DNA of 64,000 bases, from positions 1,054,001 through 1,118,000 of the forward strand of contig NC_015496.1 of the NCBI RefSeq assembly GCF_000212355.1, in the 5' to 3' direction. Shown piece by piece: positions 1 through 64,000 of the stretch (its first letter is position 1; each line of letters begins with the position of its first letter). Under the pieces are notes generated by a model. That model did not search any database. It saw nothing but the letters and a program-made list of their open reading frames with translations, and was not told the DNA's origin. The DNA is from Dokdonia sp. 4H-3-7-5 (GTDB lineage Bacteria; Bacteroidota; Bacteroidia; Flavobacteriales; Flavobacteriaceae). Position numbers and translations under genes: made by a program.

Positions 1-1073
1 ATAGGTTTCACTTCAAAATTTTCTTGTTCAAGCTTTCGCGAAAGCGTTCTAACCTTTTCATTACCCATCACCACAGCACAGTGTATGGCTGAATTACTTT
101 CTATGAATAAGCTATCAAGTTCGTGCTTTTGAATCAAACTGTTGAAATAAATTATAAGCTCTTGTAAATTTCCCACTGCTGGTAACTGTGCATCACTCCG
201 CACATCTAATTGCTCGTAAGCGGCCATTATTGTAGCAATGGCATGCGGTGGAAGTCCCGTGGTGTAAATAAATGATCTCGCAAAATTAATAAGGTAGGTG
301 CACAATGGCTCGCTGCATAAAATAGCTGCCCCATGTGCTCCCATGCCTTTACCAAAAGTAATAATACGAGCAAAAGTCTCGTTTTCTAACGCCAACTCCT
401 GCACTAAACCAAGTCCCTTTGTACCTATAACACCCGTTGCATGAGCTTCATCTACTATTAGGTAGATGTTATGTTTTTTACAAAGCTGAGTAATAGCCAT
501 GAGATCTGGCGTATCACCATCCATCGAAAAAACTGACTCCGTAACGAGGTATATCGCCGTTGTAGTTTCTTGATCATCTAGGTGATGCATCGCTTTAAGA
601 CGAGTGACTACAGTTTCTATATCTGCAATATCATTGTGTTTAAACTTATAACCTCTAGCAAGGCTCATCTGGATACCATCACGTATGCTAGCGTGTATAA
701 ACTCGTCGTAAAGAATGAGATCACCGCGCTGTGGCACGCTTTGAAAAAAACCAATATTTGCATCATAACCGCTATTAAATATAAGAGCAGTCTCACTATT
801 ATGAACACCAGCAATTAAGGTCTCTGCCTGACTATAAAGGGTATGATTACCAGATAACAGTCGACTGCCGGTGGCACCATTTGCAATAATTTGATGTTCG
901 TCTAAGATCTCTTGTGTTCGCTCTGCAATATTTCTAGCAATAGGAAGGCTACTAGAAAAACCCAAATAATCGTTAGATGAAAAATCCACCAGACCTAACG
1001 AAGTATTAAGTGTTCGCAAAGAATCACTGTCTCTGCGTATGCTAAGTTTTTTCTGTAGTTTTTCTGGTAACAT
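1..1073 (-). CDS. bioF: 8-amino-7-oxononanoate synthase (BioF), partial
   Basis: PLP-dependent fold-type I acyltransferase that condenses pimeloyl-thioester with L-alanine in biotin synthesis. I translated the minus strand from the ATG at 1073; the frame stays open through base 1, so the C-terminus lies outside the window. Visible family signatures are FSSNDYLGF near residue 31, DEAHATGVIG near 208 (PLP-ring Asp and following His) and the Schiff-base lysine region ITFGKGMGAHGA with Lys242. About 357 of the usual 380-390 residues are present. It diverges from the M61 peptidase across 85 bp. The palindromic repeat at 32-45 lies in frame and encodes LSRK. A related alpha-oxoamine synthase such as Kbl is possible, but the N-terminus looks like BioF. 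Confidence 0.85.
   Translation of the reverse strand, partial: MLPEKLQKKLSIRRDSDSLRTLNTSLGLVDFSSNDYLGFSSSLPIARNIAERTQEILDEHQIIANGATGSRLLSGNHTLYSQAETLIAGVHNSETALIFNSGYDANIGFFQSVPQRGDLILYDEFIHASIRDGIQMSLARGYKFKHNDIADIETVVTRLKAMHHLDDQETTTAIYLVTESVFSMDGDTPDLMAITQLCKKHNIYLIVDEAHATGVIGTKGLGLVQELALENETFARIITFGKGMGAHGAAILCSEPLCTYLINFARSFIYTTGLPPHAIATIMAAYEQLDVRSDAQLPAVGNLQELIIYFNSLIQKHELDSLFIESNSAIHCAVVMGNEKVRTLSRKLEQENFEVKP
32..45. repeat. GCTTTCGCGAAAGC palindrome, copy 1 (in bioF)
   Basis: Exact 14-bp palindrome inside the bioF reading frame, read as LSRK on the minus strand. Confidence 0.95.
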
Positions 1074-1158
1074 ATGGTAAAGATACTTCACGTGTTTGAC
1101 ATATATAACCCACGGAAGTGATCTTAGTTTCTTACTTTTAAATTCTAAATATTCTACT

Positions 1159-2931
1159 ATGAGATTTTTATGTTTCGCCCTTTTACTCACTAGCCTTTGT
1201 TATGGACAAACTAATGTGTACGAGATATCTTTTGATAACGCACACCACCATGAAGCGCAGATAGCTATCACTTTTCCTGAACTCAAGAAAAAGACCGTAG
1301 TGGTGCGCATGAGTAGATCCTCACCAGGACGCTACGCAATACATGAGTTTGCAAAAAACGTTTTTAATTTTAAGGCTACAAACAGTAAGGGAGAAGCGCT
1401 AGAAGCAACACGTCCAGATGCATACTCTTGGAAGATTAAAGATCATGATGGAGAGGTAAACGTGTCATACACACTATTTGCAAATAGAGCAGATGGTACC
1501 TACTCACAAGTAGATGAGTCGCACGCACATCTCAATATGCCAGCAACGTTCATGTTTATGGAAGGAGAAGACCACCGTCCAATTGAGATAAATTTTAAAC
1601 TAAGGAAAGATTTGAATTGGAAGGTAGCGAGCCAACTCAAAAAAATAGACGATGCACGTTACAGCGCACCAAACTTGCAGTACTTTTTAGACAGCCCTAC
1701 AGAGGTAAGCGATTACAAGCTTAGGGAATTTAAAGTAGATGGTCAGAACATACGTTTTGCATTACATAGTGATGACACCTCAGAAGATTTTGACACCTAT
1801 TGGGACAAGGTAAAAGCTATTGTACTGGCGCAAAAAGAGGTTTTTGGAACGTTGCCTACCTATGATTTTGGCGAGTACACTTTTCTTGCTTGTTATGCTC
1901 CTCACGTATCTGGAGATGGGATGGAACATCGCAACAGCACGATTCTTACAGACAGAGAGTCACTAGCAGCTGGAGGAATGGATGGAAATATAGGTACTGT
2001 ATCTCACGAGTTTTTCCACTCTTGGAATGTAGAGCGCATACGCCCTGCAGATTTAGAGCCTTTTGACTTTACAGCGGCCAATATGAGTGGCTCACTTTGG
2101 TTTGCCGAAGGTTTTACAAGCTATTACACAAATCTTATACTTGCCCGCGCCGGTGTTATCACTAGTGAAGACTATGTAAAAAGTCTCAACGGGACGTTTA
2201 ACTATGTATGGAACTCACCTGCACGTGACTATTTTAACCCGATTGAGATGAGCTACCAGGCGCCCTTTGTAGATGCCGCGACCTCTGTAGATCCCGTAAA
2301 TAGAAACAATACCTTTATCTCATATTACTCGTATGGAAGTGTACTCGGGCTTGCGCTTGACCTCTCACTACGCCAGCAAGGACTTAATCTTGACGACTAT
2401 TTCAAAGTGGTGTGGAATCAGTTTGGAAAAAAGGAAATCTCTTATTCCATACAAGATCTTGAGAATGTACTAGCTGAGTATGCGGGTGACGCTTTCGCGA
2501 AAACGTTCTTCTCTCAATATATTTATGATAGTCAAATGCCAGATTATCAAAACCTATTAACAAATGCGGGACTCACAATCACACAAGACGAAACAAAGCC
2601 GTACCTAGGAATACGAGTAAACGCCACCGAAACTGGTTTAAGAATTGCACGAGCTACCTCAAAAGGAACACCAGCCTATACAGCAGGCCTTAACGAAGGG
2701 GATCTTATTACTGCATTAGATGGCACGGAGTTAAGAACTAGTGAAGCTTATGAAGCCTATTTGAATTCGCTGTCCGTAGGACAGACTGTAGTTGCCAACT
2801 ATGAGCGATTTGGTAGAAAGCTTACAACTAAACTAACTGTAAGAGCAGATCCTACCTACGCAATAGCAATGGATCCAAAGCCAAGCAAAAAACCTAGCAA
2901 GCTCAGAAAATACTGGCTTCAAGAAAAATAA
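1159..2931 (+). CDS. M61 family (glycyl aminopeptidase-type) metallopeptidase with PDZ domain
   Basis: Predicted exported zinc peptidase. The start at 1159 gives a clean signal peptide (MRFLCFALLLTSLCYGQ); a longer reading from 1096 adds 21 residues that do not look conserved. The zinc site HEFFH is at residues 283-287, with the third ligand probably Glu317 in WFAEGFTSYY. The GMEHRNST segment before it (near 254) is typical of M61 enzymes. A PDZ domain occupies roughly residues 480-570 (KPYLGIRV..., then AGLNEGDLITALDG). Length (590 aa) is normal for bacterial M61 proteins. The gene is followed by its own terminator. Substrate unknown. A degenerate palindrome copy at 2491 encodes AFAK. Confidence 0.88.
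   Translation: MRFLCFALLLTSLCYGQTNVYEISFDNAHHHEAQIAITFPELKKKTVVVRMSRSSPGRYAIHEFAKNVFNFKATNSKGEALEATRPDAYSWKIKDHDGEVNVSYTLFANRADGTYSQVDESHAHLNMPATFMFMEGEDHRPIEINFKLRKDLNWKVASQLKKIDDARYSAPNLQYFLDSPTEVSDYKLREFKVDGQNIRFALHSDDTSEDFDTYWDKVKAIVLAQKEVFGTLPTYDFGEYTFLACYAPHVSGDGMEHRNSTILTDRESLAAGGMDGNIGTVSHEFFHSWNVERIRPADLEPFDFTAANMSGSLWFAEGFTSYYTNLILARAGVITSEDYVKSLNGTFNYVWNSPARDYFNPIEMSYQAPFVDAATSVDPVNRNNTFISYYSYGSVLGLALDLSLRQQGLNLDDYFKVVWNQFGKKEISYSIQDLENVLAEYAGDAFAKTFFSQYIYDSQMPDYQNLLTNAGLTITQDETKPYLGIRVNATETGLRIARATSKGTPAYTAGLNEGDLITALDGTELRTSEAYEAYLNSLSVGQTVVANYERFGRKLTTKLTVRADPTYAIAMDPKPSKKPSKLRKYWLQEK
2491..2504. repeat. Degenerate palindrome copy (GCTTTCGCGAAAAC, in M61 gene)
   Basis: One mismatch to GCTTTCGCGAAAGC; lies in the peptidase gene and is read as AFAKT. 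Confidence 0.7.
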
Positions 2932-2953
2932 AAAGGTAGCTTTTACAACTTAT

Positions 2954-2988
2954 ATCCCCAGTACTAAAACTAGTGTCGGGGATTTTTT
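2954..2988 (+). terminator. Rho-independent terminator after M61 peptidase
   Basis: Hairpin with an ATCCCC/GGGGAT outer stem, an inner ACTA/TAGT stem and two wobble pairs between them, followed by a run of six T. It lies 22 bp after the peptidase stop codon. Confidence 0.75.
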
Positions 2989-3009
2989 ATGTGTGATTTT
3001 TAAATAAAA

Positions 3010-3026
3010 TTATTGTTTTTCAATAA
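3010..3026. promoter_or_regulatory. Operator-like inverted repeat 1 (TTATTG-N5-CAATAA)
   Basis: Perfect 6-bp inverted repeat with a 5-bp spacer, overlapping the -33 TTG of the promoter before the DUF2975 genes. A second, nearly identical site lies 31 bp downstream. Probably bound by the small HTH protein at the end of this operon (inference). Confidence 0.55.
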
Positions 3027-3040
3027 TTTTTATATATTTG
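3013..3040 (+). promoter_or_regulatory. Bacteroidota-type promoter of the DUF2975-HTH operon
   Basis: TTG at 3013-3015, 17-bp spacer, then TATATTTG at 3033-3040, which matches the TAnnTTTG -7 element. The start codon is 22 bp downstream. Confidence 0.7.
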
Positions 3041-3057
3041 TTATTGTAAAACGATAA
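3041..3057. promoter_or_regulatory. Operator-like inverted repeat 2 (TTATTG-N5-CGATAA)
   Basis: Same 17-bp architecture as the site at 3010-3026, with one half-site difference. It covers the expected transcription start and ends 4 bp before the ATG. Confidence 0.55.
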
Positions 3058-3061
3058 TAAA

Positions 3062-3568
3062 ATGAAAAATTTAGCAATTCTCAGAAAACTGATTTCCATT
3101 TACTACTACCTAATGGTAATACTATTTGCGATAGGACTTATTACCATTCCATTGCTTCTATATCTAGGAAAGAAAACTGAGGTTTCTTTTTTTGGCGATC
3201 AAATAAACATACACTCGCTTTCCTCCACAAAAACTGCTATCGTTCTCTTTCTTATAGGCTCGCTATACTTGCTATACTTTCTATCCATTAGGTTGATTAA
3301 AAATACAGTGGATACCTTAGCTACTGGTGTATATTTTACACAAAAGGTTATCTCTAATTTTAAAAAAGCAGGCAACTACTTTATAGCGATTGGAATTGGA
3401 GCAACTATTGTCAAGATTATCGTAGACCTTCTTGTCCTGAGTGAATTAAAAATAAACATCGATGGAGGGATGCTTGTGTTTATTCTTTTTGGGCTTTTCT
3501 TTATGTTTTTGAGTGAAGCATTTGCAAAAGCACGGACTATCAATGAAGAAAACAATTTAACTATATAA
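3062..3568 (+). CDS. DUF2975 family membrane protein (first copy)
   Basis: A 168-aa integral membrane protein with about four hydrophobic segments (roughly residues 12-34, 55-80, 105-128 and 135-158). Arrangement and size fit the DUF2975 family, which is commonly encoded next to a small YozG-like HTH regulator, as here. Biochemical role unknown. It ends in the residues NNLTI, closely matched by the NDLTI end of the next protein, which suggests tandem duplication. First gene of a three-gene operon (gaps 9 and 3 bp). Confidence 0.75.
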   Translation: MKNLAILRKLISIYYYLMVILFAIGLITIPLLLYLGKKTEVSFFGDQINIHSLSSTKTAIVLFLIGSLYLLYFLSIRLIKNTVDTLATGVYFTQKVISNFKKAGNYFIAIGIGATIVKIIVDLLVLSELKINIDGGMLVFILFGLFFMFLSEAFAKARTINEENNLTI

Positions 3569-3577
3569 ACACATCAG

Positions 3578-4051
3578 ATGAAAAAAATTAAAATACTTTA
3601 CGTAGCTACCATTATTATGGCGGTTATGTATATAATAGGTTACTTAACCACATTTGTTGTACTAAGTAGAGCTTCGGCCAATAATGTTTATACAGGGAAA
3701 GATCTAGTATTTGGAAGCTATAATATGTACATAAGTGACGCGCAATCTCTACTAATTTTTATTGGCTTAATTGTCAGTATACTTAGTCTAAAAAGCATAA
3801 TTAAAGAGGGCTACTTTTCAATAAACGCCAAAAAATTAATGAGTATAGCAGGATACATCTTTTTCTTCTCAGGCGTCTTGATGACCGTTTTAGATATTAT
3901 AAGAGTTCAAAGTGGAGGCGACCCAAACATAATGATGGGAATTATTTTGATGGATTTTATGTTTGCATTACTTGGCTTTATAGTTCTAATTATTGCAGAT
4001 ATGGCACAAACTGGATATCAACTCAAATCTGAAAATGATCTAACTATATAA
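3578..4051 (+). CDS. DUF2975 family membrane protein (second copy)
   Basis: A 157-aa protein with four predicted membrane segments (about residues 5-28, 55-75, 88-108 and 122-142). It has the same length class, topology and C-terminal LTI ending as the upstream protein and I assign it to the same family, though overall identity is low. It sits 9 bp after the first copy and 3 bp before the HTH gene. Function unknown; co-transcription with the regulator suggests a regulator-linked membrane module. Confidence 0.65.
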   Translation: MKKIKILYVATIIMAVMYIIGYLTTFVVLSRASANNVYTGKDLVFGSYNMYISDAQSLLIFIGLIVSILSLKSIIKEGYFSINAKKLMSIAGYIFFFSGVLMTVLDIIRVQSGGDPNIMMGIILMDFMFALLGFIVLIIADMAQTGYQLKSENDLTI

Positions 4052-4054
4052 CCT

Positions 4055-4267
4055 ATGCCTATAACTATTAACTTAGACAAAGTACTGGCAGATCGTGAGA
4101 TGAGGAGTAAGGAGCTTGCAGAGATTGTAGGTATTACAGAAGCAAACCTCTCTATCCTTAAATCTGGTAAGGCAAAGGCAGTGCGTTTCTCTACGCTTGA
4201 GGCGATCTGTAAGGCCTTGGATTGTCAACCTGGAGATATACTAGAATATACCACAAAAGACACATAA
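4055..4267 (+). CDS. Small Cro/CI-type HTH regulator (YozG-like)
   Basis: A 70-aa protein that is essentially a single helix-turn-helix domain: MRSKELAEIVGITEANLSIL forms the first helices and recognition helix, and LEAICKALDCQPGDILEY is the classic end of small XRE-family proteins. Third gene of the DUF2975 operon. The two TTATTG-N5-CRATAA repeats at the operon promoter are the natural candidate binding sites, which would make it an autoregulator (inference). Confidence 0.85.
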   Translation: MPITINLDKVLADREMRSKELAEIVGITEANLSILKSGKAKAVRFSTLEAICKALDCQPGDILEYTTKDT

Positions 4268-4296
4268 TACATTTTAAAACTTTTTCTAAAACAAAA

Positions 4297-4329: not shown

Positions 4330-4348
4330 AAACTTATTTCACTGCGCT

Positions 4349-4644: not shown

Positions 4645-4664
4645 ACGCTTTCGCGAAAGCGTAA
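4645..4664. repeat. Palindrome copy 2 (between atpD and atpC)
   Basis: The 14-bp core at 4648-4661 is extended by symmetric flanks to a 20-bp perfect palindrome. It lies within the 48-bp atpD-atpC intercistronic gap, so it should be transcribed as a hairpin in the atpDC mRNA. Confidence 0.95.
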
Positions 4665-4675: not shown

Positions 4676-6190
<1,515 letters not shown>

Positions 6191-11038: not shown

Positions 11039-11887
11039 GTGCAAGCAATAACAGCTCATAAACAGATTTCTAAAATCGTTCATCAAGCAAAAAGCAATGG
11101 CAAATCCGTAGGTTTTGTCCCTACAATGGGCGCCCTACATCATGGACATGCATCACTTATTGATTATGCATTCAAAGATTGTGCCCTAATCATAGTAAGC
11201 ATTTTTGTTAATCCTACACAATTCAATAACGCCTCAGACTTAGACAAGTATCCTCGCACTCTCGATAAAGATCTAGACTTTCTAGCCCATTATGGAGATA
11301 AGGTAATAGTATACGCACCAACGGCTACAGAAGTCTATGGGAATGAAGTTTCATCTACCCCTTATAACTTTGGAACCATAGAGAAGGTTATGGAGGGAGA
11401 GCACAGACCAGGACATTTTGATGGTGTAGGCACTGTTTTAAATCTTCTTTTTAGACAAGTAAATCCGGATAAAGCGTATTTTGGAGAGAAAGATTATCAA
11501 CAGCTTGCCATTGTGCGTAAGCTTGTAGAAAAAGAAAAGCTACCTATAGAAATTATAGGCTGCCCTATACATAGACAAGAAGACGGCCTTGCCATGAGCA
11601 GTCGCAACGCACGACTTACTGAGAATCAACTTGCTATCGCGCCTTTTATTTATGAAGTGCTGCGGTATGTGAAGAGTAATTTTGACAGACACTCTGCGAT
11701 ACAATTGAGAAGGTATGTTTCAGCGGCTTTTGAGAAAAAGGAAGGTCTCGAGCTTGAATACTTTGAGATTGCAAATATTAAAAATTTAAGTACGCTTTCG
11801 CGAAAGCGTAAAAACCAACAATACCGAGCTTTTCTTGCCGTTTATGCTGGTGAGATTAGACTTATAGATAATATAGCCCTAAATTAA
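11039..11887 (+). CDS. panC: Pantothenate synthetase
   Basis: Joins pantoate and beta-alanine with ATP to give pantothenate (CoA pathway). Starts with GTG at 11039, the only start giving the full N-terminus. Nucleotidyltransferase signatures: PTMGALHHGH at residues 28-37, FVNPTQF near 56, GEKDYQQL and MSSRNARL. At 282 aa it is normal length. Next to panD, 21 bp downstream, it covers two consecutive needs: beta-alanine supply and condensation. An exact palindrome copy near the 3' end encodes LSRK. Confidence 0.96.
   Translation: MQAITAHKQISKIVHQAKSNGKSVGFVPTMGALHHGHASLIDYAFKDCALIIVSIFVNPTQFNNASDLDKYPRTLDKDLDFLAHYGDKVIVYAPTATEVYGNEVSSTPYNFGTIEKVMEGEHRPGHFDGVGTVLNLLFRQVNPDKAYFGEKDYQQLAIVRKLVEKEKLPIEIIGCPIHRQEDGLAMSSRNARLTENQLAIAPFIYEVLRYVKSNFDRHSAIQLRRYVSAAFEKKEGLELEYFEIANIKNLSTLSRKRKNQQYRAFLAVYAGEIRLIDNIALN
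11791..11810. repeat. Palindrome copy 3 (in panC)
   Basis: 20-bp perfect palindrome (core 11794-11807) within the panC frame, read as STLSRKR near the C-terminus. Confidence 0.95.
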
Positions 11888-16077: not shown

Positions 16078-16095
16078 ACGCTTTCGCGAAAGCGT
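16078..16095. repeat. Palindrome copy 4 (intergenic, before radA)
   Basis: 18-bp perfect palindrome ACGCTTTCGCGAAAGCGT, 7 bp after the LuxR-type gene stop. It is followed by A residues on the plus strand, so it does not look like a terminator. Confidence 0.95.
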
Positions 16096-17693: not shown

Positions 17694-18839
17694 ATGTTTA
17701 AAAAGATACTATACACCTTATTACTTCTTGCCATAATAAGCTGTAATCAAATTCAAAAAGCCACAGACGCCATCACGCAACCCTCGGCTCGCGAAGTTTA
17801 CGCTCGGGGCTTCAAGAAAGATGATAGTATTTATAAATCATGGGATTCCGCTTTCGCGAAAGCGTATCAAAAAAATTTACTGCCTAAAGACCAAAACGTA
17901 CTCTCGGGTCTTCCGTATACCACTGTAGGGACTTATTCTTCCAACAATTTGATTCCCTACCGCTATACATTCACACTCGCTGCAGGTGAGATTTTTCATG
18001 CAGAAATTGACAACAATGTAGACTCAACCGCCATATTTCTTGATCTTTTCACATGGAAGAAGGATTCTATAATGAATTCAACGCCTAGATTATCCAATGC
18101 TTCTAATGAGAAAAAAATTACTACCGAAATTAAGGCTTCAGGATTATACACACTACTTATACAGCCTGAAATAAGCACAAACTCGTCCTTTGCATTAAAA
18201 ATTTATACAGCACCACAATACAGCTTTCCAGTAAGTGGAAAAAGCAACAAGGCCGTTCAAAGCTTTTGGGGTGCTTCTAGAAGTGGTGGAAAGCGTAGCC
18301 ATGAGGGTGTAGATATTTTTGCATCTCGAGGGACTCCGGTTATAGCGATTACCGATGGTATTGTCTCATCCACAGGTAATCGCGGTCTAGGAGGTAAACA
18401 GGTGTGGTTACGTGACGGTATTTTTGGTCAGTCGCTATATTATGCGCACCTAGATAGCATCATCGCTACTACTGGACAGCGCGTGAAAATAGGAGATACG
18501 CTCGGATTAGTAGGCAATACTGGGAATGCCAAAACGACACCTCCACATTTACATTTTGGCATTTATAATCGTACGGGAGCTATTAACCCATATCCATATA
18601 TTAAAAAAACGGAAATACCCGCAATTTTAGATTCGCTATCTAGCAAATTAGGAGTTCTTATAAACAATGGTACGATGCGATTATCACCAACTTCAACTTC
18701 AGAAAAAATTGGCACATTAAAGAGAAAGGATACTGTCTTGTTGCTAGAAAAAACAGGCAATTGGTTTCATGTACGTGCTCATGATAGTTTACAAGGATAT
18801 CTATATAAAACGGCTATAAAGTCCATTCCATCTACATGA
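17694..18839 (+). CDS. M23 family peptidoglycan endopeptidase lipoprotein with SH3 domain
   Basis: 381-aa lipoprotein; ATG at 17694 gives a clean SP-II signal with lipobox IISC (Cys17), preferred over a GTG three codons upstream. The LytM/M23 zinc site is intact: H-x3-D at His203/Asp207 (SHEGVDIFAS) and HLH at 285-287. A bacterial SH3-type domain forms the last ~60 residues (GTLKRKDTVLLLEKTGNWFH). Probably trims cell-wall cross-links from the outer-membrane side. An exact palindrome copy encodes AFAKA at residues 53-57. Confidence 0.9.
   Translation: MFKKILYTLLLLAIISCNQIQKATDAITQPSAREVYARGFKKDDSIYKSWDSAFAKAYQKNLLPKDQNVLSGLPYTTVGTYSSNNLIPYRYTFTLAAGEIFHAEIDNNVDSTAIFLDLFTWKKDSIMNSTPRLSNASNEKKITTEIKASGLYTLLIQPEISTNSSFALKIYTAPQYSFPVSGKSNKAVQSFWGASRSGGKRSHEGVDIFASRGTPVIAITDGIVSSTGNRGLGGKQVWLRDGIFGQSLYYAHLDSIIATTGQRVKIGDTLGLVGNTGNAKTTPPHLHFGIYNRTGAINPYPYIKKTEIPAILDSLSSKLGVLINNGTMRLSPTSTSEKIGTLKRKDTVLLLEKTGNWFHVRAHDSLQGYLYKTAIKSIPST
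17850..17863. repeat. Palindrome copy 5 (in M23 gene)
   Basis: Exact 14-bp core in frame, read as AFAKA in the region between the lipid anchor and the catalytic domain. Confidence 0.95.
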
Positions 18840-18855: not shown

Positions 18856-18873
18856 ACGCTTTCGCGAAAGCGT
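18856..18873. repeat. Palindrome copy 6 (between convergent genes)
   Basis: 18-bp perfect palindrome in the gap between the M23 gene and the convergent aldo/keto reductase gene. Confidence 0.95.
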
Positions 18874-20026: not shown

Positions 20027-21019
20027 CTAATCAATATCATTAAGCAAAGCCGTCACCTCATCAAGTTTAGGTGTTAAGATTACTTCTATACGTCTATTTT
20101 TTGCTTTATTCTCTGCTGTATCATTTTCGGCTACGGGAGCATATTCTCCACGGCCCGCTGCTGTTAGATTCTTAGGGTCTATATCTCTGTTTGTGCGTAA
20201 AATTTCAACAATAGCTGTTGCTCTTTTTGCAGAGAGGTCCCAGTTTCCAGCTAGATTTCCGCTGCCTCCGTAAGGCACATTATCTGTGTGTCCCTCGATA
20301 AGCACAGCGATGTCGGGATTATCTGCTAGCACGCTACCTAATTGCTTTACCGCCTTTGTTCCGTTTGCGCCTACTGTCCAGCTACCAGAATCAAATAAAA
20401 GCTTGTTTTCTAGCGACACATATACCTTACCATCACGTTGCTCTACGGTAAGTCCTTTTCCTTCAAAGTCTGTAAGTGCTTTTGAGATAGATTCTTTAAG
20501 CACTCTCATTGTAGCATCTTTTGCTGCAATGACACCTTCTAGCTCATCTACTCTCGCAGAGCGTTCTGCTAGATCCTTTTGTAACTTTTCAAGACGAGTA
20601 CGTTCTGCTTCAAGAGCAGCAGTTTTTTCGGCAAGATCGTTTTGTTTTGTTTCTAGTTCGGCTAGAAGTTGTCTGTTTTTCTGAGAATTTTCGGCTATAG
20701 TCGCACTACTATTAGATTCTAGTGCATTATAACTTGCTTGTAGTTGCTCTAGATTAGCTTTCGCGGAAGCGTTCTCACCTTCTAACTCCTCTACCCTAGT
20801 CATACTTGTGGCTAAGTCTTTTGAGACCTTATCATAAATCTCGTTCCTTTTATCGAGCTCAGCTTTCAGGTCCTTAACATTATCTTCAAGGCTACGATTA
20901 TCCTTGCGCAACCTGCTATAGCTTGCTTCAAGATCTTTAAACTTTTTTGCAGGAACACAAGAAGTAAGTGCGCTTATCGCAAGTATTATAAGAAGGGATT
21001 TTTTAAACATTGTATTCAT
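20027..21019 (-). CDS. OmpA-family peptidoglycan-binding lipoprotein
   Basis: 330 aa: signal with lipobox LTSC (Cys21), a long coiled coil (about residues 28-175, heptad-rich with many Glu/Lys), then an OmpA_C domain (about 200-320) with VLIEGHTDNVPYGG, NWDLSAKRATAIVEIL and AAGRGEYAPV, plus the NRRIEVIL end. It probably tethers the outer membrane to peptidoglycan. It lies 5 bp downstream of the exonuclease III gene, so co-transcribed. A second Met at residue 4 could also be the start. Confidence 0.88.
   Translation of the reverse strand: MNTMFKKSLLIILAISALTSCVPAKKFKDLEASYSRLRKDNRSLEDNVKDLKAELDKRNEIYDKVSKDLATSMTRVEELEGENASAKANLEQLQASYNALESNSSATIAENSQKNRQLLAELETKQNDLAEKTAALEAERTRLEKLQKDLAERSARVDELEGVIAAKDATMRVLKESISKALTDFEGKGLTVEQRDGKVYVSLENKLLFDSGSWTVGANGTKAVKQLGSVLADNPDIAVLIEGHTDNVPYGGSGNLAGNWDLSAKRATAIVEILRTNRDIDPKNLTAAGRGEYAPVAENDTAENKAKNRRIEVILTPKLDEVTALLNDID
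20757..20770. repeat. Degenerate palindrome copy (GCTTTCGCGGAAGC, in OmpA-type gene)
   Basis: One mismatch to the 14-bp core; read as ASAKA in the coiled coil. Confidence 0.7.
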
Positions 21020-21907: not shown

Positions 21908-24900
21908 ATGCGCGTATTTTACACAGTTCTTTTACTATTATGCACCAGTGCTGTTCTAGCACAACAAACGCGTACCAAAAGAATTGTAGTAAGAGACTCT
22001 GTACTTTTAGATTCTGTAAGTATTAATCCATCCTTATTTAAAATTACCACGCTACAAGGCACAAGGATAGACAGTACAGCTTATAGTGTTGATTATGGAA
22101 AAAGTATCATTACGCTTAGCGCGAAAAATGGAGCACTTCCAGATTCTCTCATTGTAACGTATAAAGTTTATCCAGATTTTCTCACGCGTGCTTACTCTCA
22201 GTATGACCCTAGCCAGATTGTGACGAGTACTGGGAGCCTTAATAAGGTGATAAGCCTAGGTGAGGACAGGAGAACAAATACTGTCACTCCATTTTCTGGC
22301 CTTAACGTGAGCGGAAGTATACTGAGAGGAGTCGCTGTAGGCAATAGTCAAAACAGCACCTTAAACTCAGAGCTTGACTTACAAATAAGTGGAAAGCTAA
22401 GTGAGCGCGTTACCTTACGCGCTTCTATACAAGATGCAAATATACCTAGCCAGCAAGGCGGATACTCTCAAAATCTAGATGAGTTTGACCAGGTTTTTAT
22501 CGAGCTATTTTCTGATAATTGGAATATAAGAGCTGGTGATATTAATCTAGAAAACAAGGACACCTATTTTGGTAGGTTTACAAAGAAAATTCAAGGCTTA
22601 TCCTTAGGTGGAACCTTGAATCACTCAGATGATAAACAAACAGACTTACATGCTTCTGGAGCTTTAGTGCGAGGTGTTTTTACACAAAGCACTTTTACAG
22701 GGCAAGAAGGCAATCAAGGTCCTTATAAACTCACTGGACCTAATGGTGAGTTGTTTGTTTTGGTCGTTTCGGGTAGTGAGACTGTTTATGTAAACGGCAT
22801 TCCGCTCACACGTGGAGAAAGCGAAGACTATATTATCGATTATAATGCTGGAGAGATTCGATTTAATGCGACTTATCCCATCACTAGTGAAATGCGCATT
22901 AATGTTGCCTATCAATTTTCTGAACGTCGTTACACTCGCTTTCTGGCGTATGGAGGAGGAAGCTTTCGCGAAAGCGATAAACTCAAAATATCTGCTCACG
23001 TATACTCAGAAAGTGATGCTAAGAATCAACCACTACAACAAAATCTCACCTCCGAACAGGTTGCTATTTTACAAGGTGCTGGTGATGATATGCAAGAAAT
23101 GATTGCCCCTAGCGCAATCTCAGACACCTTTGATGAAAATAAGATTCTCTACAGACAGATTGTTGTAAATGGCGTCGAAGCTTTTGAATTTAGCGCTGAT
23201 CCTGAAGAAGATTTGTTTCAAGTACGTTTTACTAATGTAGGAGAAAACCAAGGAGATTACATTTTAAGCACGACAAATACTTTACAGCGTACATTTCAAT
23301 ATGTTGCCCCTATTAATGGTATTTCGCAAGGTTCTTTTGCTCCTCAAGTACAACTTTTTGCTCCTACCGTATTACAATTAGGCGTAGTAAATGGAAGCTA
23401 TACGCCCTCAGAAAAAACTACGATAAACTTTGAAGCTGCGGGAAGTAACAATGACACCAACACATTCTCTACGCTAGATGATGATGACAATAATGGTTAT
23501 GCTGTACATGTAGACGTAAATCAGCTGCTATATAAAACGGATAGTTTATCCAGCTTTCGTACTTTTGGGAGTTGGGATTTTATACAAGAAGATTTTAGAA
23601 GTATTGAAGGGCTCTACAATATAGAATTTAACCGAGATTGGAATGTCGAGAACTCACTAGCACAAGCGGGTGGAACCTTATTAGGAACTCAACATTTTAC
23701 TACGGTAGGACTCAATTATGCTCATGCAAAACATGGTGCAATTACCTATCAATTTCAACATCTAAATTTTCAAGATGCTTATAATGGTTTCAGACACAGC
23801 TTAAATGCCAACTGGGAACTAGGCAAATTGAGAACTGCGATTAATGCAAGTACGCTTAGTACAGATGATGTACAACTCAATACAGACTTTACACGAGCAG
23901 ACGTAAATGCAATTTATGGTTTCAAAAAATCATGGATAGGCGCTTCATTTAATATGGAGGACAACGTTAGAGTCACAAAGAGGAATGACTCTATAACGGC
24001 AAATAGTCAGCGATTTAGTGCTTACAAAGCTTTTGCTGGCGTGGGAGACAGCACAAACGTCTATATGGAAGCTGGATATAAATATCGTGTAAATGATAGT
24101 GTGCGACTTAATCGCATAGCACGTGTAAATACATCCAATACATATTACTTAAAATCTCAATTAATAAAGAATGAGAAAACCAACGTTTCGCTCTTTTTGA
24201 ATTATCGTAATCTCAGCTATGAGGATCAACGAGAAGATGAGAATTCGCTCAACTCAAGATTGCTGTATAATCAACGATTTGCAAATGATATCATCCGTCT
24301 CAATACTGTTTTTGAAACCAATAGTGGTACTCAACCTCAGCAAGAATTTACTTTTATTCAAGTAGACGAAGGTCAAGGAACACATACATGGAATGATTAC
24401 AACGGAGATGGCATACAAGAGCTAGATGAGTTTGAGATAGCCCAGTTTCAAGATCAAGCAGATTATGTGAGAATATTACTGCCCAACCAAGTATTTGTAA
24501 GAACTCACCAAAACAGATTAAGCCAGCAACTCACATTACAACCTGGACAATGGTCTGGACTTAAGGGAATAAAAAAGTTCCTCTCTCACTTCTACAATCA
24601 ATCTAGCTACATCTTAGATAAACGAGTGTTGCGCACTGATAACGATTTTAGTCTCAACCCATTTAATGAGGATGAGAATGAAATAGGAGCCACGGTTAAC
24701 TTTAGAAATACGCTATTCTATAATAGAGGAAAGCAACGTTACACGACCTCCTATTCATATCTATCAAATACATCAAAAATTCTTCTTTCTACGGGGTTGC
24801 AGGAAAGTATGATACAAAGTCATCAACTTAACTTTTTACACAAAGTAAAGGAGAGTTGGCTTTTTAATGTTCAAGGAGATCTAGGTGCAACAGAAAGTAA

Positions 24901-30190: not shown

Positions 30191-30212
30191 TTACGCTTTC
30201 GCGAAAGCGTAA
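30191..30212. repeat. Palindrome copy 8 (upstream of glyS)
   Basis: Longest form: core 30195-30208 extended symmetrically to 22 bp with TTAC/GTAA ends. Confidence 0.95.
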
Positions 30213-34465: not shown

Positions 34466-36376
34466 ATGCAAAACACAATTGCTCAAAGAATCTATGATTT
34501 TTTAAAACAGTTTCCACCATTTCAATTTATGGCCGAAGGTGATTTGCTGGATATTTGTAGCCAAGCTTCTGTACTTTACTTGGATAAGGATGAAGTCATT
34601 TTTAATCGTGATCAAGCTTATAATGATCGTTTTTATATCGTTCAGCAAGGGGCTATAAAACTCACTAGACCATCCAAGGATGTGATTAAGGTGGTAGACA
34701 TTTGCGATGAAGGAGACCTTTTTGGTCTTAAAGTAACCTCTACAGATACTTATAGAACGACTGCTACGGCAAAGGAAGAGACGATACTCTATACATTACC
34801 TATGGAGGAGTTTTCCGCTTTCGCGAAAGCGAACAAAGCCATTTCAAACTACCTTATCGCTAGCTTTGCATCAAACATAAAAGATCCATATACCTTACAG
34901 CAAAGTGGCTCTTTACTGAACACCTATGAGCCCGAACGTAGCGCACATTTATTAGGGTTAGAACAAGCACGATATAGCACATCTATCATCACTTGCTCTC
35001 CAGAAACTTCCATACAAGAAGCAGCAAGATTGATGCAACAACATCGTATAGGATGTTTAGTAATTACAGTCAATGCAGTTCCAGTAGGTGTTCTCACAAA
35101 TCGAGAATTGCGCAATGCTATTGCAAATAATATTATCTCTAGTGATCACGTAGTAGGTGATGCAATGATTACTCAGGTTGTCTGTGCCGTTACAAAAGTA
35201 ACCGTAGCTCAAGCGCAACTTATACTCCTCAAAAATGGAATAAGTCATCTCATAATTACCGAGGACGGTACAGCTAGCACAAAGGTAGTAGGTCTGTTAA
35301 GTAAACATGATATTGTGGTAGCTTACGGTAACAGTCCCGCCGAACTCGTAAAGGAAATAAAACGAGCAAAAAAAACCAAAATGCTACGATTTACTTGGGA
35401 AAAAGCAACACTTCTTCTTGGGCGCTACCTAGACCAAAACTTACCTATATCACATATTCTTAATATTTTTTCTGAGCTTAAAGATGCTCTCATGCAACGC
35501 ACTATGGAGCTCTCATTAAGTAAGATGGCACATAATCCTCCAGTATCATTTACATGGCTTGCATTAGGAAGTCAAGGTCGAGAGGAGCAATTACTCTATA
35601 CAGATCAAGATAACGCTCTTATTTATGAGGATGTGTCACCAGAAACTAATGAGGCGACTAAAAATTACTTTCTGCATCTAGCAAATAGGATGAATAAACG
35701 CCTTCATAAAATAGGTTATGATTACTGCCCTGCAGATATGATGGGAAGTAATCCGCTATACTGTTTATCACTTTCTGAATGGAAAGCGCAGTTTTCTACA
35801 TGGGTTAAAGATCCATCTCCAGAAAGCATGTTGCTATCGGGAATATTCTTTGACTATAGAATGGTCTATGGAACTCAGGAATTAGTAGGAGAACTTACCG
35901 CCTCTATTTATGACCAGCTATCTACATCTTCTGTCTTTTTTAGATTTATGGCAAAGGATGCACTTAAAAACCCGCCGCCGGTGAGTTTCTTTCGCAACTT
36001 TCTTGTGGAGTCAGATGGTGCACATAAAGATGAATTTGATATAAAAAACCGAGCTATGGCTCCATTAATAAGTGGCGCCAGAGTGCTTTCTCTTTACCAT
36101 AACCTACGCAACATAAATCATACCTCAGAACGTTTTGAAAAGCTTGCAGAGCTAGAACCTCAAAACAAAGAACTCTTTGAAAGCTGCGCATACGCATTTA
36201 AAGCACTTCTTAAATTTAGAGTCAAACAAGGGTTGCGCAACGATGATAGCGGCCGCTTCATTAAACTAGCAGATTTATCTAAAGAGGAACGTCTCAAACT
36301 AAAACGATGCTTTAAGCCACTGCGCGATTTACAAGAAGTGGTACGTGTACGCTTTCAAACTCAAAATTTGAGCTAG
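34466..36376 (+). CDS. cNMP-binding/CBS/DUF294 nucleotidyltransferase-like protein
   Basis: 636-aa cytosolic regulator. Domains: cyclic-nucleotide-binding-like (about 15-125), two CBS motifs (about 172-290), a DUF294 nucleotidyltransferase-like core with GSQGREE at 368-374 and Asp380/Asp382 (GlnD-like G-S-x-x-R-x-E and D-x-D), and a C-terminal DUF294 helical domain. The metal-binding residues are kept, so catalysis is possible. The next two genes abut it with no intergenic base. Palindrome copy in frame (AFAKA, residues 118-122) lies just after the cNMP domain. Confidence 0.88.
   Translation: MQNTIAQRIYDFLKQFPPFQFMAEGDLLDICSQASVLYLDKDEVIFNRDQAYNDRFYIVQQGAIKLTRPSKDVIKVVDICDEGDLFGLKVTSTDTYRTTATAKEETILYTLPMEEFSAFAKANKAISNYLIASFASNIKDPYTLQQSGSLLNTYEPERSAHLLGLEQARYSTSIITCSPETSIQEAARLMQQHRIGCLVITVNAVPVGVLTNRELRNAIANNIISSDHVVGDAMITQVVCAVTKVTVAQAQLILLKNGISHLIITEDGTASTKVVGLLSKHDIVVAYGNSPAELVKEIKRAKKTKMLRFTWEKATLLLGRYLDQNLPISHILNIFSELKDALMQRTMELSLSKMAHNPPVSFTWLALGSQGREEQLLYTDQDNALIYEDVSPETNEATKNYFLHLANRMNKRLHKIGYDYCPADMMGSNPLYCLSLSEWKAQFSTWVKDPSPESMLLSGIFFDYRMVYGTQELVGELTASIYDQLSTSSVFFRFMAKDALKNPPPVSFFRNFLVESDGAHKDEFDIKNRAMAPLISGARVLSLYHNLRNINHTSERFEKLAELEPQNKELFESCAYAFKALLKFRVKQGLRNDDSGRFIKLADLSKEERLKLKRCFKPLRDLQEVVRVRFQTQNLS
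34817..34830. repeat. Palindrome copy 9 (in CBS/DUF294 gene)
   Basis: Exact 14-bp core, read as AFAKA. Confidence 0.95.
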
Positions 36377-37782: not shown

Positions 37783-37796
37783 ATTTTCGCGAAAGC
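37783..37796. repeat. Degenerate palindrome copy (ATTTTCGCGAAAGC)
   Basis: Two mismatches in one arm; lies between the HAD and convergent ankyrin genes. Confidence 0.6.
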
Positions 37797-39013: not shown

Positions 39014-40152
39014 ATACTAGTTAAAATTTCGGCAGCTTTTTTGAGTGTTTCGTCATCTTTGGCAACACAAAATCGTAGCATTTTAAAATCTTCTTGATCC
39101 ACATTAAATACCGACGTTGGTATAGACGCTAGTTTATAGTCTATGGTTAACGCTTTCGCGAAAGCGGTATCACTCTCATTAGTAATAGCAGAATAATCCA
39201 GCATCTGAAAGTAGGTGCCTGCGGCAGGCTTTGCTGTAAATCGCGAACCTTCAATTAGGTTTAAAAACAAATCTCTTTTCTGCTGATAAAAATCGTTGAG
39301 TTCTAGATAATGACTAGGCTCCTTGAGGTACTGAGCAAAGGCTTTTTGTGATGGATGGTGTACAGAAAACACATTAAACTGATGTACTTTTTGAAACTCT
39401 GCCATCAACTCTTTTGGAGCAACTGTATATCCCATTTTCCATCCTGTGTTATGAAAAGTCTTCCCAAAGGATGCCGTAATAAAACTGCGTGCTCTTAATG
39501 CTGGGTAACGAGCCACACTCTCATGACGCTTGCCATCAAAGACTATATGCTCATACACCTCATCACTCAATAATATTATATCTGTACCTTCAAGAATGCG
39601 CTCTAACTCCAGCATATCTTCTTTATCAAGAATAGTACCCGTAGGATTGTGCGGAGTATTAATGAATATCATTTTAGTCTTAGGCGTGATAGCATCTTCC
39701 ACCGATTTCCAGTTTACTTTATAATCTGGTGCTTTGAGTTGGATAGGGACTACTTTACCGCCATTTACAATTACTGCAGGCTCATAACAATCATAAGCTG
39801 GCTTTAATATAATTACTTCATCATCTGTACGTATAAAAGCAGATACGATTGTGTAAATAGCTTGGGTAGCTCCAGCAGTTACTGTAACTTCTGTCTCAGG
39901 ATGATAATCACTTCCATATAAGGTATTGAGCTTTTGAGTGATTTGTTCTCGCAAGCTGTAAACACCTTGCATAGGAGCATACTGATTATACCCATCACTC
40001 ATTGCTTTCGTAACTAGCTGTTGCAGTTTTGGATCACTATCAAAGCCCGGAAATCCTTGTGCAAGATTAATGGCTTGATGTTCGTGAGCCATCTTACTCA
40101 TCACCGTAAAAATGGTAGTACTAACGTCAGGAAGTTTTGAATGAAAGTGCAT
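39010..40152 (-). CDS. Methionine aminotransferase (YbdL-like, PLP-dependent)
   Basis: 380-aa fold-type I aminotransferase. INLAQGFPGFD near residue 28, TPHNPTGT near 165, DEVYEHIVFDG and the PLP lysine in SFGKTFHNTGWKMGY. These match the YbdL/kynurenine-aminotransferase group that transaminates methionine and aromatic amino acids. It pairs metabolically with the omega-amidase at 33.6 kb. A palindrome copy encodes AFAKA. Confidence 0.9.
   Translation of the reverse strand: MHFHSKLPDVSTTIFTVMSKMAHEHQAINLAQGFPGFDSDPKLQQLVTKAMSDGYNQYAPMQGVYSLREQITQKLNTLYGSDYHPETEVTVTAGATQAIYTIVSAFIRTDDEVIILKPAYDCYEPAVIVNGGKVVPIQLKAPDYKVNWKSVEDAITPKTKMIFINTPHNPTGTILDKEDMLELERILEGTDIILLSDEVYEHIVFDGKRHESVARYPALRARSFITASFGKTFHNTGWKMGYTVAPKELMAEFQKVHQFNVFSVHHPSQKAFAQYLKEPSHYLELNDFYQQKRDLFLNLIEGSRFTAKPAAGTYFQMLDYSAITNESDTAFAKALTIDYKLASIPTSVFNVDQEDFKMLRFCVAKDDETLKKAAEILTSI
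39151..39166. repeat. Palindrome copy 10 (in aminotransferase gene)
   Basis: 16-bp perfect palindrome (core 39152-39165), read as AFAKA on the minus strand. Confidence 0.95.
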
Positions 40153-40883: not shown

Positions 40884-40903
40884 TACGCTTTCGCGAAAGC
40901 GTA
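40884..40903. repeat. Palindrome copy 11 (between acyl-CoA synthetase and DUF3109 genes)
   Basis: 20-bp perfect palindrome (core 40887-40900) 14 bp after the acyl-CoA synthetase stop on the minus strand. Confidence 0.95.
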
Positions 40904-44440: not shown

Positions 44441-44458
44441 TTACGCTTTCGCGAAAGC
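44441..44458. repeat. Palindrome copy 12 (after M20 gene)
   Basis: Exact core at 44445-44458 with an asymmetric 3' flank, 21 bp beyond the M20 coding end. Confidence 0.95.
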
Positions 44459-44580: not shown

Positions 44581-44598
44581 ACGCTTTCGCGAAAGCGT
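44581..44598. repeat. Palindrome copy 13 (after katG)
   Basis: 18-bp perfect palindrome, 8 bp beyond the katG stop. Confidence 0.95.
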
Positions 44599-50195: not shown

Positions 50196-50216
50196 TAATA
50201 GTTGTGATATCTGTTG

Positions 50217-50238
50217 TTACGCTTTCGCGAAAGCGTAA
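50217..50238. repeat. Palindrome copy 14 (upstream of dCMP deaminase gene)
   Basis: 22-bp perfect palindrome (core 50221-50234) 21 bp upstream of the deaminase ATG, in the likely promoter or leader. Confidence 0.95.
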
Positions 50239-50292
50239 AAAAATATAATATATAACTTATTTACACACTTCTAAAAGCATGTAAAACAATAA

Positions 50293-56423: not shown

Positions 56424-56437
56424 GCTTTCGCGAAAGC
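56424..56437. repeat. Palindrome copy 15 (between GNAT and aspartate kinase genes)
   Basis: Exact 14-bp core in the 136-bp gap between two plus-strand genes. Confidence 0.95.
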
Positions 56438-60538: not shown

Positions 60539-60552
60539 GCTTTCGCGAAAGC
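60539..60552. repeat. Palindrome copy 16 (after response regulator gene)
   Basis: Exact 14-bp core, 9 bp beyond the end of the minus-strand response regulator gene. Confidence 0.95.
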
Positions 60553-62455: not shown

Positions 62456-62642
62456 CTATAGGTTTGCCATAACATTCTGATTAACAGAACTATTATCCAC
62501 TTTAGTTAACTAAAATAGATAATTTAATTTTAATTTGCGTAGAATAGCTAACCCTTATTCATTTTTAAATTTATCATACTAGAAATAATTAACGCAGCAG
62601 AGCCATTATTAAAATAATTAAATTGCCGCTTAAATAGAATTT

Positions 62643-64000
62643 TTAAGAAATTCTAATGGCAATTTCTCTAATAACGTCAAGCAAGCGCTCTGTGTGTTTT
62701 GTTGTCGTAAAAGGGTTCATAAATGTGGTTCTTAAATAGAATTCTCCACGTAAAGAGGTTCCCACAATATAAAACTCTCCATCTTCTAGTAATGCTTTAC
62801 GTATGCTCTGGTTGACAAGATTAACATCACCAGCGCTCGCTTTATATCTAAAACACACTATATTTGAGACTGGATCTAGCGCTACTTCAAAATCTTCTTG
62901 CTTCTTCACTAAGGCAGCAAAATCCTTTCCCGCATCATAAAGCGTAGTAACAAAATCATCAAAAAACTGAACTCCATATGCATTTATAAGAGCATAAAAA
63001 CGCAAGCTCATCATACTTTTTGTACATTCAAAAGTCCTTTTGGCTAGGTTAAACCAGTCTGCATCTTCGTTCTTTTCCCAGAGATATTGTGCTTTTTGCT
63101 CAAACGTAGCGTAGCTAGCCGTACTTTCCTTAAAAATAACCGCCGTTGCCAGCGCACTTGTACCCATCATTTTATGACCGTCTATAATTATGGAATCGGC
63201 TTTATCTGCTCCATTTAATAGATGTTTGTATTTAGGAGAAAAAATAGCTGCTCCACCATGGGCTGCGTCTATGTGGAACCATATTTTTTTTGCTTTCGCG
63301 AAAGCGTGAATCGCTTCTAGATCATCGTAAACCCCAGTACTTGTGCTAGGAGCACTCCCCACAATAGCAATCACCTCATAACCTTTTGCTACAGCCGAAT
63401 CATAGTAAGTATCTAACAGTTCTGTGCGCATCTTGTAAGTGTCATCTGCAGGCACTTTTATAATGCCTTCACTCCCAAGGCCCATAATTCTAGCTGCTCT
63501 ATCTACGCAATAGTGCGCTTCCTCAGAAACCATAATGGCAAGTTTACTGCTGTGCCCTTCATTCCAAACATCACCTTCTGCCATCACTCTACGAGCAGCA
63601 AGTAAGGCTGTAAGGTTTGCGAGCGTTCCCCCAGAGGTTAGAAAACCGTCGCCATTATCGAAGCCAATAACTTTTGCAAACTGCTCGATAATCAATCGCT
63701 CCAGTGCAGTAGATGCTGCTCCCATCTCATATACTGCCATCCCATTATTAAGTTGCGCGCTCAATAGTGTGGCTAAAGCAGATACAGGCACCGTAGGTGC
63801 CACCTGATGACCTATATATTTAGGGTGGTGCGTGCGTATTGACCTCGCGATAACAGTCTTAAAAAAGTCTGAGGTTGTGTGATTAGATGAAATATACTCT
63901 TTCCAAAATTGATACTCATCTTCTGGTGTTGTCCACGTGATGACTTTCTCTGATTTTCCCGAGGTAGTGTCAGACAAGTATTGAGATATCTGATTTACTA
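62643..64000 (-). CDS. PLP-dependent group II decarboxylase, partial at N-terminus
   Basis: Fold-type I decarboxylase similar to diaminobutyrate/aspartate/tyrosine decarboxylases. FLTSGGTLANLTAL, HIDAAHGG (PLP Asp) and the lysine in IIDGHKMMG are visible. A TTG at 63977 could start it, but the frame is open to the right edge (upstream residues read VNQISQYLS, which fits the family), so the real start is probably outside the window. A palindrome copy encodes AFAKA. Substrate not determined. Confidence 0.88.
   Translation of the reverse strand, partial: VNQISQYLSDTTSGKSEKVITWTTPEDEYQFWKEYISSNHTTSDFFKTVIARSIRTHHPKYIGHQVAPTVPVSALATLLSAQLNNGMAVYEMGAASTALERLIIEQFAKVIGFDNGDGFLTSGGTLANLTALLAARRVMAEGDVWNEGHSSKLAIMVSEEAHYCVDRAARIMGLGSEGIIKVPADDTYKMRTELLDTYYDSAVAKGYEVIAIVGSAPSTSTGVYDDLEAIHAFAKAKKIWFHIDAAHGGAAIFSPKYKHLLNGADKADSIIIDGHKMMGTSALATAVIFKESTASYATFEQKAQYLWEKNEDADWFNLAKRTFECTKSMMSLRFYALINAYGVQFFDDFVTTLYDAGKDFAALVKKQEDFEVALDPVSNIVCFRYKASAGDVNLVNQSIRKALLEDGEFYIVGTSLRGEFYLRTTFMNPFTTTKHTERLLDVIREIAIRIS
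63292..63305. repeat. Palindrome copy 17 (in decarboxylase gene)
   Basis: Exact 14-bp core, read as AFAKA in IHAFAKAKK. Confidence 0.95.

Follow-up and report, generated by a model that had tools for sequence, protein, structure and literature searches.

The genome of Dokdonia sp. 4H-3-7-5 is marked throughout by a perfect 14-bp palindrome, GCTTTCGCGAAAGC, which forms the core of a larger element with about 20 bp of strand-skewed sequence on either side. We consider its best explanation to be a clade-specific self-DNA signal, acting in uptake or recombination and read by a putative dimeric factor (probability of about 0.42). The excess of copies is genome-wide and restricted to a clade, cores are conserved, arms are skewed, neighbouring copies exclude one another and intergenic positions are preferred. 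Statistics on the present genome come from the window (the whole 64-kb stretch of DNA analysed) and 20 sampled 20-kb stretches, together 464 kb with 117 sites, and genes were called with a simple longest-ORF script.

In the window we counted 17 exact copies, spanning positions 32-63305, and none in any of 100 dinucleotide shuffles. The preliminary description of this DNA had the same 17, and its split into ten intergenic and seven genic copies was recovered by simple ORF calling; where it had at least 4 degenerate copies, we found 3 with two or fewer mismatches (2491, 20757 and 37783). The symmetric extension that it described is real, with the consensus TTACGCTTTCGCGAAAGCGTAA, symmetric about the core. 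The sites, given without strand, are:

32..45, exact core within an ORF, LSRK frame
2491..2504, one-mismatch copy, its counterpart in relative G007 being exact
4647..4660, exact core, intergenic, 15 bp beyond the atpD stop
11794..11807, exact core within an ORF, LSRK frame, identical in 11/11 aligned relatives
16080..16093, exact core, intergenic, stop codon 9 bp before
17850..17863, exact core within an ORF, AFAKA frame
18858..18871, exact core, intergenic between convergent genes
20757..20770, one-mismatch copy from the mismatch scan
22962..22975, exact core within a large ORF, FRES frame, gap-free substitution in G004
30195..30208, exact core, intergenic
34817..34830, exact core within an ORF, AFAKA frame, identical in 6/6 aligned relatives
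37783..37796, two-mismatch copy from the mismatch scan, end variant ATTTTCGCGAAAGC
39152..39165, exact core within an ORF, AFAKA frame, absent from G016 and G003 through substitution
40887..40900, exact core, intergenic, with a single substitution in G012
44445..44458, exact core, intergenic between convergent genes
44583..44596, exact core, intergenic, in the same convergent region as the 44445..44458 copy
50221..50234, exact core, intergenic, intact with changed flanks in G008 and G007
50196..50259, the whole element as an example (core with 25 bp per side), left flank C-poor and G/T-rich, right flank G-poor and A-rich
56424..56437, exact core, intergenic, stop codon 28 bp before
60539..60552, exact core, intergenic, stop codon 8 bp before
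63292..63305, exact core within an ORF, AFAKA frame

The genome-wide count gave 757 copies in 3.39 Mb (about one per 4.5 kb) against 0 for a reversed-pattern control, and each of the 20 stretches sampled round the chromosome held 2-7 sites, none being empty. Thus neither outcome that the preliminary description had named as speaking against it, counts close to background or copies restricted to this region, was found. All 18 searched genomes of the genus Dokdonia had 369-905 copies each, two further genera of Flavobacteriaceae, one of them Nonlabens, had 408-664, and none of the other genomes in the family-wide sample of 397 had more than 19, making hundreds of copies specific to three genera among those sampled. 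The motif may have a single origin across these three; in a GlmS tree built from 29 of 30 rows (G019 was left out, its start not being located), only 38% of bootstrap trees showed a single change. Exact copies outnumbered one-mismatch copies by 117 to 12 in the sample of the present genome and by 26 to 9 in G230. Lone half-sites were near background (GCGAAAGC, 10 vs 6.2 expected; CGAAAGC, 21 vs 20.8), and both half-sites are needed.

Metal-resistance islands and temperate-phage contigs of other genera also bear sites, and copies have presumably been transferred into these genera. The motif may also tag DNA that has left the clade, as in metal-resistance islands elsewhere. A strict viral scan with the arm pattern returned three stretches on two contigs. 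Viral sites were taken from 17 loci chosen by eye, 3 of them found with a pattern that demands the arms, and skew after removal of these 3 was 0.28 (17 sites); in the other viral loci among the matches listed it was -0.02 (54 sites), so most of those listed look like chance.

At aligned orthologous positions, the mapping proposed in the preliminary description, cores were intact in 14/14 cases in G008 (background 0.45-0.53), 8/9 in G012 (0.47-0.56), 15/15 in G007 (0.23-0.36), 8/9 in G016 (0.06-0.11) and 7/8 in G003 (0.06-0.10). This conservation is strong both within genes and between them, and it holds even though coding copies form the majority of those sampled. The core at 4647..4660, for example, was intact in G008, G012, G007, G016, G003 and G017, and with small flank gaps in G004 and G013; it was not present in G014, G010, G015 and G011. 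None of 35 genic presence/absence alignments, whose counts are redundant across relatives, showed a clean insertion of the whole core (18 were gap-free substitutions and 17 had small gaps), and 32 intergenic orthologue alignments were gapped at the site.

Composition profiles of 114 of the 117 sites showed arms that are G/T-rich and C-poor 5' of the core and the complement 3' of it, in genic and intergenic copies alike, and on either strand of this element of about 60 bp the arm leading 5' into the core is the G/T-rich one. What the arms share across the set is a statistical composition and no fixed sequence, and no left-right covariation was found (z +1.7 intergenic, -1.8 genic), on which ground a hairpin or cruciform was rejected. 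In orthologues lacking the core the skew was reduced yet still present (n=26; 0.29 on the left and -0.20 on the right, compared with 0.42 and -0.46). Position -2 is mixed in Nonlabens (T 35, C 33 and A 26 of 98). Intergenic sites make up 53 of the 117, though intergenic DNA is 10% of the sequence; the 64 genic copies read mostly as Ala-Phe-Ala-Lys-Ala.

Gaps between sites were more even than random (CV 0.72 vs 0.99, P 0.0005, for the first 99 gaps, from the first 100 sites listed). With the genic or intergenic class of each site kept, only 4 pairs lay within 1 kb where 28.0 were expected; the copies at 44445 and 44583, 138 bp apart, are one of two pairs below 250 bp in the 464 kb. Pair correlation was 0.13-0.17 below 1 kb and 0.7-0.9 at 1 to 3 kb, with no preferred distance seen beyond the exclusion zone. 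The spacing, earlier called irregular, does vary from gap to gap, but it is not random, being more even than chance with repulsion below about 1 kb. Two other Dokdonia genomes were also evenly spaced (G016, CV 0.62; G010 contig C9, CV 0.55). The arms and the mutual exclusion had both been overlooked in the preliminary description. The site-poor gaps gave only partial support to an origin as foreign DNA: one (L322) has low GC, NACHT and DUF5655 proteins and 4 of 6 tested proteins with no Pfam match, another (L321) gave two ordinary-looking proteins and two with no match among four tested, and a third (L324) is a single ORF of about 10 kb.

As a self-DNA signal, the palindrome and its arms would be recognised by a dyad-symmetric dimeric DNA-binding factor during uptake or homologous recombination. 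A single copy on each few-kb fragment would suffice, so that copies arising through point mutation would be retained through selection and/or because DNA bearing a copy spreads preferentially in the population, and a nearby second copy would be redundant and decay. The protein, its part in uptake or recombination, the drive and the cross-genus transfer are inferred; the earlier suggestion of a protein site or uptake-type signal is probably right. In Neisseria it is a component of the type IV pilus that reads the uptake sequence. Among 14 carriers, the PF00437 type II/IV secretion-pilus ATPase was above cut-off in 5 and was not found above it in the present genome or 8 others, which leaves these without the classical uptake machine. 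ComEC was present in 14/14 carriers and does not discriminate, since 16/17 non-carriers also have it. No receptor was found. Even spacing of uptake sequences is attributed to Karlin in PMC1939737, which also describes known uptake signals as non-palindromic and uptake sequences as less even than expected of chromosome-compacting sequences; on that account, very strong exclusion could favour an architectural site. PMC7965970 reports that Riemerella columbina, which it assigns to Flavobacteriaceae, prefers its own DNA in uptake, and gives the motif as unknown.

An architectural site, at which a clade-specific dimeric nucleoid protein would bind, wrap or open the DNA by means of the arms and organise the chromosome in few-kb units, is a close rival, although we regard it as somewhat unlikely. 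The perfect dyad with symmetric arms, the sites in 20/20 sampled stretches, the strong exclusion and the core conservation in genic and intergenic copies all suit it, but sites on temperate-phage contigs and metal-resistance islands of other genera do not, nor does the lack of a preferred distance past the exclusion zone. We found no candidate architectural protein: the ParB family (PF02195) had one match in 13/14 carriers, hence no general Noc-type paralogue, and a Noc reading was dropped for want of a cognate second ParB, only G010 having two. We think it improbable that the element is a Chi-like recombination hotspot, orientation-independent through its palindrome and with the G/T-rich arm on the RecA-loading strand. 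RecA prefers G/T-rich strands, which the arm skew fits, copies occur on some phage contigs, and one site per 4.5 kb is near the density of E. coli Chi (81 in 350 kb); against this, E. coli Chi showed no arm skew and no exclusion (18 pairs below 1 kb among the 81 sites vs 19.8 expected, gene classes disregarded), and lone half-sites of our motif stay at background.

The likeness to HIP1 noted at the outset holds for density and symmetry, and HIPs co-occur with methyltransferases according to PMC4390886. A methyltransferase-linked iterated palindrome of that kind would account for a palindromic, highly iterated, clade-wide motif. It was weakened by TCGCGA outside the motif being at background in the window (9 vs 7.6 expected) and by the absence of the C5 DNA methyltransferase family from 8/14 carriers, the present genome included, which makes C5 methylation dispensable; 14 bp plus arms also far exceeds the usual methyltransferase site, and we hold this origin to be quite improbable. 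The self-spreading palindrome also proposed earlier, a REP/RAYT-like or MITE-like element inserting copies, would fit the high copy number, the intergenic preference and the gapped intergenic alignments, but we hold it to be highly improbable: the genic alignments hold no clean insertion, the arms share composition and not sequence, and the PF01797 Y1/RAYT transposase occurs in 4/14 carriers and was not found in 9/10 Dokdonia, including the present genome, or in G230. Equally little speaks for bidirectional terminators or RNA hairpins. Of 29 co-directional intergenic sites, 24 lie in the stop-proximal half, at a median of 15 bp past the stop, as terminators would; yet 64/117 sites are genic, the 3' flank is A/C-rich with no U-run and the arms do not covary, in agreement with the earlier statement that this is not a terminator set.

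Other genera were scanned for dialects. In a related genus (g96, via G116), a different iterated motif, CTTCGGAAATA, reached 310 copies in one genome (control 6) and 116 in another (control 2), and looks like a dialect of the motif. Even spacing of CTTCGGAAATA was not found by CV (0.86, P 0.14), and short gaps were weakly depleted (4 under 2 kb vs 8.7, P 0.04). A search by eye of seven single 20-kb stretches from other genera (G019, G023, G025, G031, G034, G035 and G070) found no comparable dispersed motif and turned up local repeats and a palindrome that we take to be parS-like. Three others (G127, G024 and G089, 80-140 kb each) gave weaker enrichments only, among them CTTCGGAA, enriched six-fold in G024 and taken to be a putative codon-like signal.

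In the literature searched, no paper contained CTTTCGCGAAAG and none linked "highly iterated palindrome" with Flavobacteria; ten papers containing TTTCGCGAAA, and five matches for Dokdonia with palindromes, were unrelated as judged by title. Among the matches listed, no title on uptake sequences in Flavobacteria or Bacteroidetes named such a motif, and the ten listed of 463 matches on competence made no mention of Dokdonia or Nonlabens. The signal is open to testing in culturable marine bacteria, and it offers a handle on how Flavobacteriaceae distinguish their own from foreign DNA and on what maintains highly iterated palindromes.

To our knowledge, few kinds of genome-wide iterated motif have been described (HIP, DUS/USS, Chi and architectural sites). 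With the DUS of Neisseria and the USS of Pasteurellaceae the element shares copy numbers in the hundreds, a leaning towards intergenic positions, even spacing, restriction to a clade and the presence of another iterated motif in a related genus; it differs in being palindromic with symmetric arms, in the 9/14 carriers with no PF00437 ATPase above cut-off and in having few one-mismatch copies in the present genome, the ratio for USS being less sharp than 117 to 12. Like HIP1 (GCGATCGC) and other cyanobacterial HIPs it is a genome-wide iterated palindrome, clade-wide, genic and intergenic, but it has 14 bp with skewed arms of about 20 bp where HIP1 is an octamer, it has no GATC, its inner TCGCGA alone is unenriched, the C5 methyltransferase is dispensable and copies strongly exclude one another. 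The remaining systems, like terminators, fit poorly. REP/RAYT elements are likewise short dispersed palindromes, but clean genic insertions (0/35) and, in 10/14 carriers, the transposase are missing here. Noc/parS sites are dimer-read palindromes with TTTC/GAAA half-sites, their spacing one base per half off from GCTTTCGCGAAAGC, whereas GCTTTCGCGAAAGC has hundreds of sites and leaves 0/20 sampled stretches empty, and 13/14 carriers have no second ParB. Chi sites (5-8 nt) are similar in density, clade-specific and G/T-preferring in strand, a preference carried by the arms in our element, but they are short and directional, stimulating recombination by RecBCD/AddAB, and E. coli Chi lacks exclusion and arm skew. 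The element mixes features of several of these kinds and matches none, and we tentatively propose that this dyad of about 60 bp may represent a new class of chromosome-wide site in Bacteroidota with a putative clade-specific dimeric reader, a pilus-independent mark of self for uptake or recombination, with dialects in neighbouring genera.

We confirmed the 17 exact copies of the 14-bp palindrome that the preliminary description had reported in the window, none of which arose in any of 100 dinucleotide shuffles, and the genome-wide counting that it had called for yielded 757 copies in the single contig of 3,389,993 bases, against 0 for the reversed control. Across a sample of 464 kb (the window and 20 stretches of 20 kb, the latter with 2-7 sites each), exact copies numbered 117 (0.0006 expected), one-mismatch copies 12 (0.03 expected) and two-mismatch copies 25 (0.6 expected). 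Both bases at one end were altered in 17 of these 25 (such as ATTTTCGCGAAAGC), including the one at window position 37783. Half-sites alone, off the known copies, were at background level (10 against 6.2 for GCGAAAGC and 21 against 20.8 for CGAAAGC). The extended consensus of the palindrome in Dokdonia was TTACGCTTTCGCGAAAGCGTAA; in Nonlabens, position -2 was mixed.

The flanks of the core followed a strand-symmetric rule, with about 20 bp on the 5' side being C-poor and G/T-rich and about 20 bp on the 3' side the complement. At arm positions 5-20, 873 G were counted against 260 C (232 arms, P = 8e-78), at genic and intergenic copies alike and also in named Dokdonia and Nonlabens loci, whereas six other palindromes gave control skews of 0.01-0.15 and lone TCGCGA gave -0.08. 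The end-altered two-mismatch variant formed a second tier, its arms being skewed, but less (0.26), and in genome G230 the skew was narrower (0.37 at positions 5-10, 0.07 at 11-20). Left and right arms do not covary, so they form a composition rule and not a stem.

Among 397 Flavobacteriaceae genomes, 80 had at least one copy, and hundreds of copies were found only in Dokdonia, in Nonlabens (578-664, 3 genomes) and in a third genus, g210 (408, 1 genome); the highest counts elsewhere were 19, 17 and 16. All 18 Dokdonia genomes had 369-905 copies, the two lowest counts coming from genomes that are 78% and 85% complete. In a phylum-wide draw, 22 of 395 genomes had a match, with more than 6 copies in the window's own genome only. 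Public genomes held at least 111 stretches with the palindrome, of which 80 were listed; among the matches listed, two or more sites occurred in Dokdonia, Nonlabens, "Flavobacteria bacterium BBFL7" and one uncultured Aquimarina. A GlmS tree (29 rows) placed the carrier genera within one starred group of 12, plus one non-carrier (G127). Two changes of carrier state were most parsimonious and a single change was obtained in 38% of bootstrap trees; carriage may have had one origin among these genera.

Copies outside the carriers included a pair 933 bp apart within a 406-codon ORF, which recurs in stretches from four further genera (L312-L315) and in contig L091 of Aquimarina, at the following positions:

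L312, 9431 and 10364, palindrome pair
L313, 3266 and 4199, palindrome pair
L314, 6588 and 7521, palindrome pair
L315, 16727 and 17660, palindrome pair
L091, 157 and 1090, palindrome pair
G200, contig C1, 311231 and 312164, the same pair

In L312 the ORF encodes an outer-membrane efflux protein and adjoins RND, P-type ATPase and multicopper-oxidase genes, a metal-resistance cluster, probably for copper. Since the genomes of L312-L315 have just 4-6 copies each in total and the arms of the island sites are skewed (0.43, 10 sites), the pair was apparently transferred from a carrier lineage. All six copies in G029 lie on contig C18 (82640-174379); this region may have been transferred, or the contig may be a contaminant. 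Most viral matches, among those listed, look like chance occurrences (arm skew -0.02 in 54 sites); 14 hand-picked AT-rich viral loci had a moderate skew (0.28, 17 sites), and picked contigs encoded a phage transposition family transposase (L225, L256) or an integrase (L216).

At aligned sites in relatives, the core was intact far more often than random 14-mers in the same alignments: 14/14 against 0.45-0.53 (G008), 8/9 against 0.47-0.56 (G012), 15/15 against 0.23-0.36 (G007; chance about 1.5e-8 by multiplying background rates), 8/9 against 0.06-0.11 (G016) and 7/8 against 0.06-0.10 (G003). The ten bases 5' of the core were less conserved than the core (71-92% identity in G008). Over 479 site-by-relative alignments from 13 genomes, redundant between relatives, 381 were exact, 15 had a single-base difference, 8 had two or three differences, 26 were gap-free with at least 4 differences and 49 were gapped. 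The genic subset comprised 18 gap-free alignments with at least 4 substitutions and 17 with small gaps; as none of these 35 had the whole core inserted, genic copies look like products of point mutation. Intergenic copies may have been gained by insertion (32 gapped alignments).

In the 464-kb sample, 53 of 117 sites were intergenic, against 10% of the sequence (P = 2e-22). Of the 29 that separate co-directional genes, 24 lay in the half closer to the stop codon (P = 0.0005). The 64 genic sites were read as AFAKA (41), LSRK (15) or FRES (8). Sites also avoided one another. The gap CV of the first 100 sites of the window's genome was 0.72 against a null of 0.99 (P = 0.0005), with 0.62 in G016 (66 gaps) and 0.55 in contig C9 of G010 (19 gaps). 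Preserving the genic or intergenic class of each site, we counted 4 pairs below 1 kb (28.0 expected) and 5 below 1.5 kb (39.5 expected). Pair correlation was 0.13-0.17 below 1 kb, 0.7-0.9 up to 3 kb and 0.8-1.3 farther out, without periodicity. One 14-kb interval between two sites (L322, genome 96901-111174, GC 0.33) encodes NACHT and DUF5655 proteins and has the look of a defence-type region or of acquired DNA; in L324, a gap without sites is occupied by one ORF roughly 10 kb long (128-10225).

Perfect symmetry without surplus half-sites suggests that the palindrome would be read by a dimer on double-stranded DNA. As exclusion spans 1-3 kb, one copy would be enough for such a stretch and a nearby second copy superfluous. 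The signal would act on each DNA fragment, as in uptake or recombination, or on each chromosomal domain, either of which predicts exclusion. Of the candidate readers, the ParB family had one match in 13 of 14 carriers and two in G010; Y1 transposase occurred, among carriers, only in G011 and three Nonlabens; PF00437 was above cut-off in 5/14 carriers and 4/18 non-carriers; ComEC was found in 14/14 carriers, both g96 genomes and 16/17 others; and C5 MTase was found in 6/14 carriers and absent from the window's genome. None of these accounts for the palindrome.

The related genus g96 iterates a non-palindromic motif, CTTCGGAAATA, genome-wide, with 310 copies in G116 and 116 in G326 counted over both strands (reversed control, 6 and 2), and it is iterated more weakly elsewhere (motif/control 39/10 in G141, 20/4 in G118 and 38/7 in G024). 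The spacing of CTTCGGAAATA gave a non-significant CV (P = 0.14) and a borderline result for short gaps (P = 0.04). In L316 and L377-L379 of G116, the stretches in which it was sampled, TTTCAGAAA was also over-represented (17 against 2.2, third-order model). This dialect-like motif, together with the own-DNA preference of Riemerella columbina described in PMC7965970, tilts us toward the palindrome being a self-DNA signal.

Full-text literature searches returned neither a report of the palindrome sequence nor work linking such a palindrome with Dokdonia or Flavobacteria. E. coli Chi, our control (81 sites in seven 50-kb stretches), had neither exclusion nor arm skew, whereas the palindrome has both. 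Its distribution is like that of uptake sequences, two of whose defining features it lacks, while its form is like that of HIPs. We file it among the iterated motifs, but under neither of these kinds.
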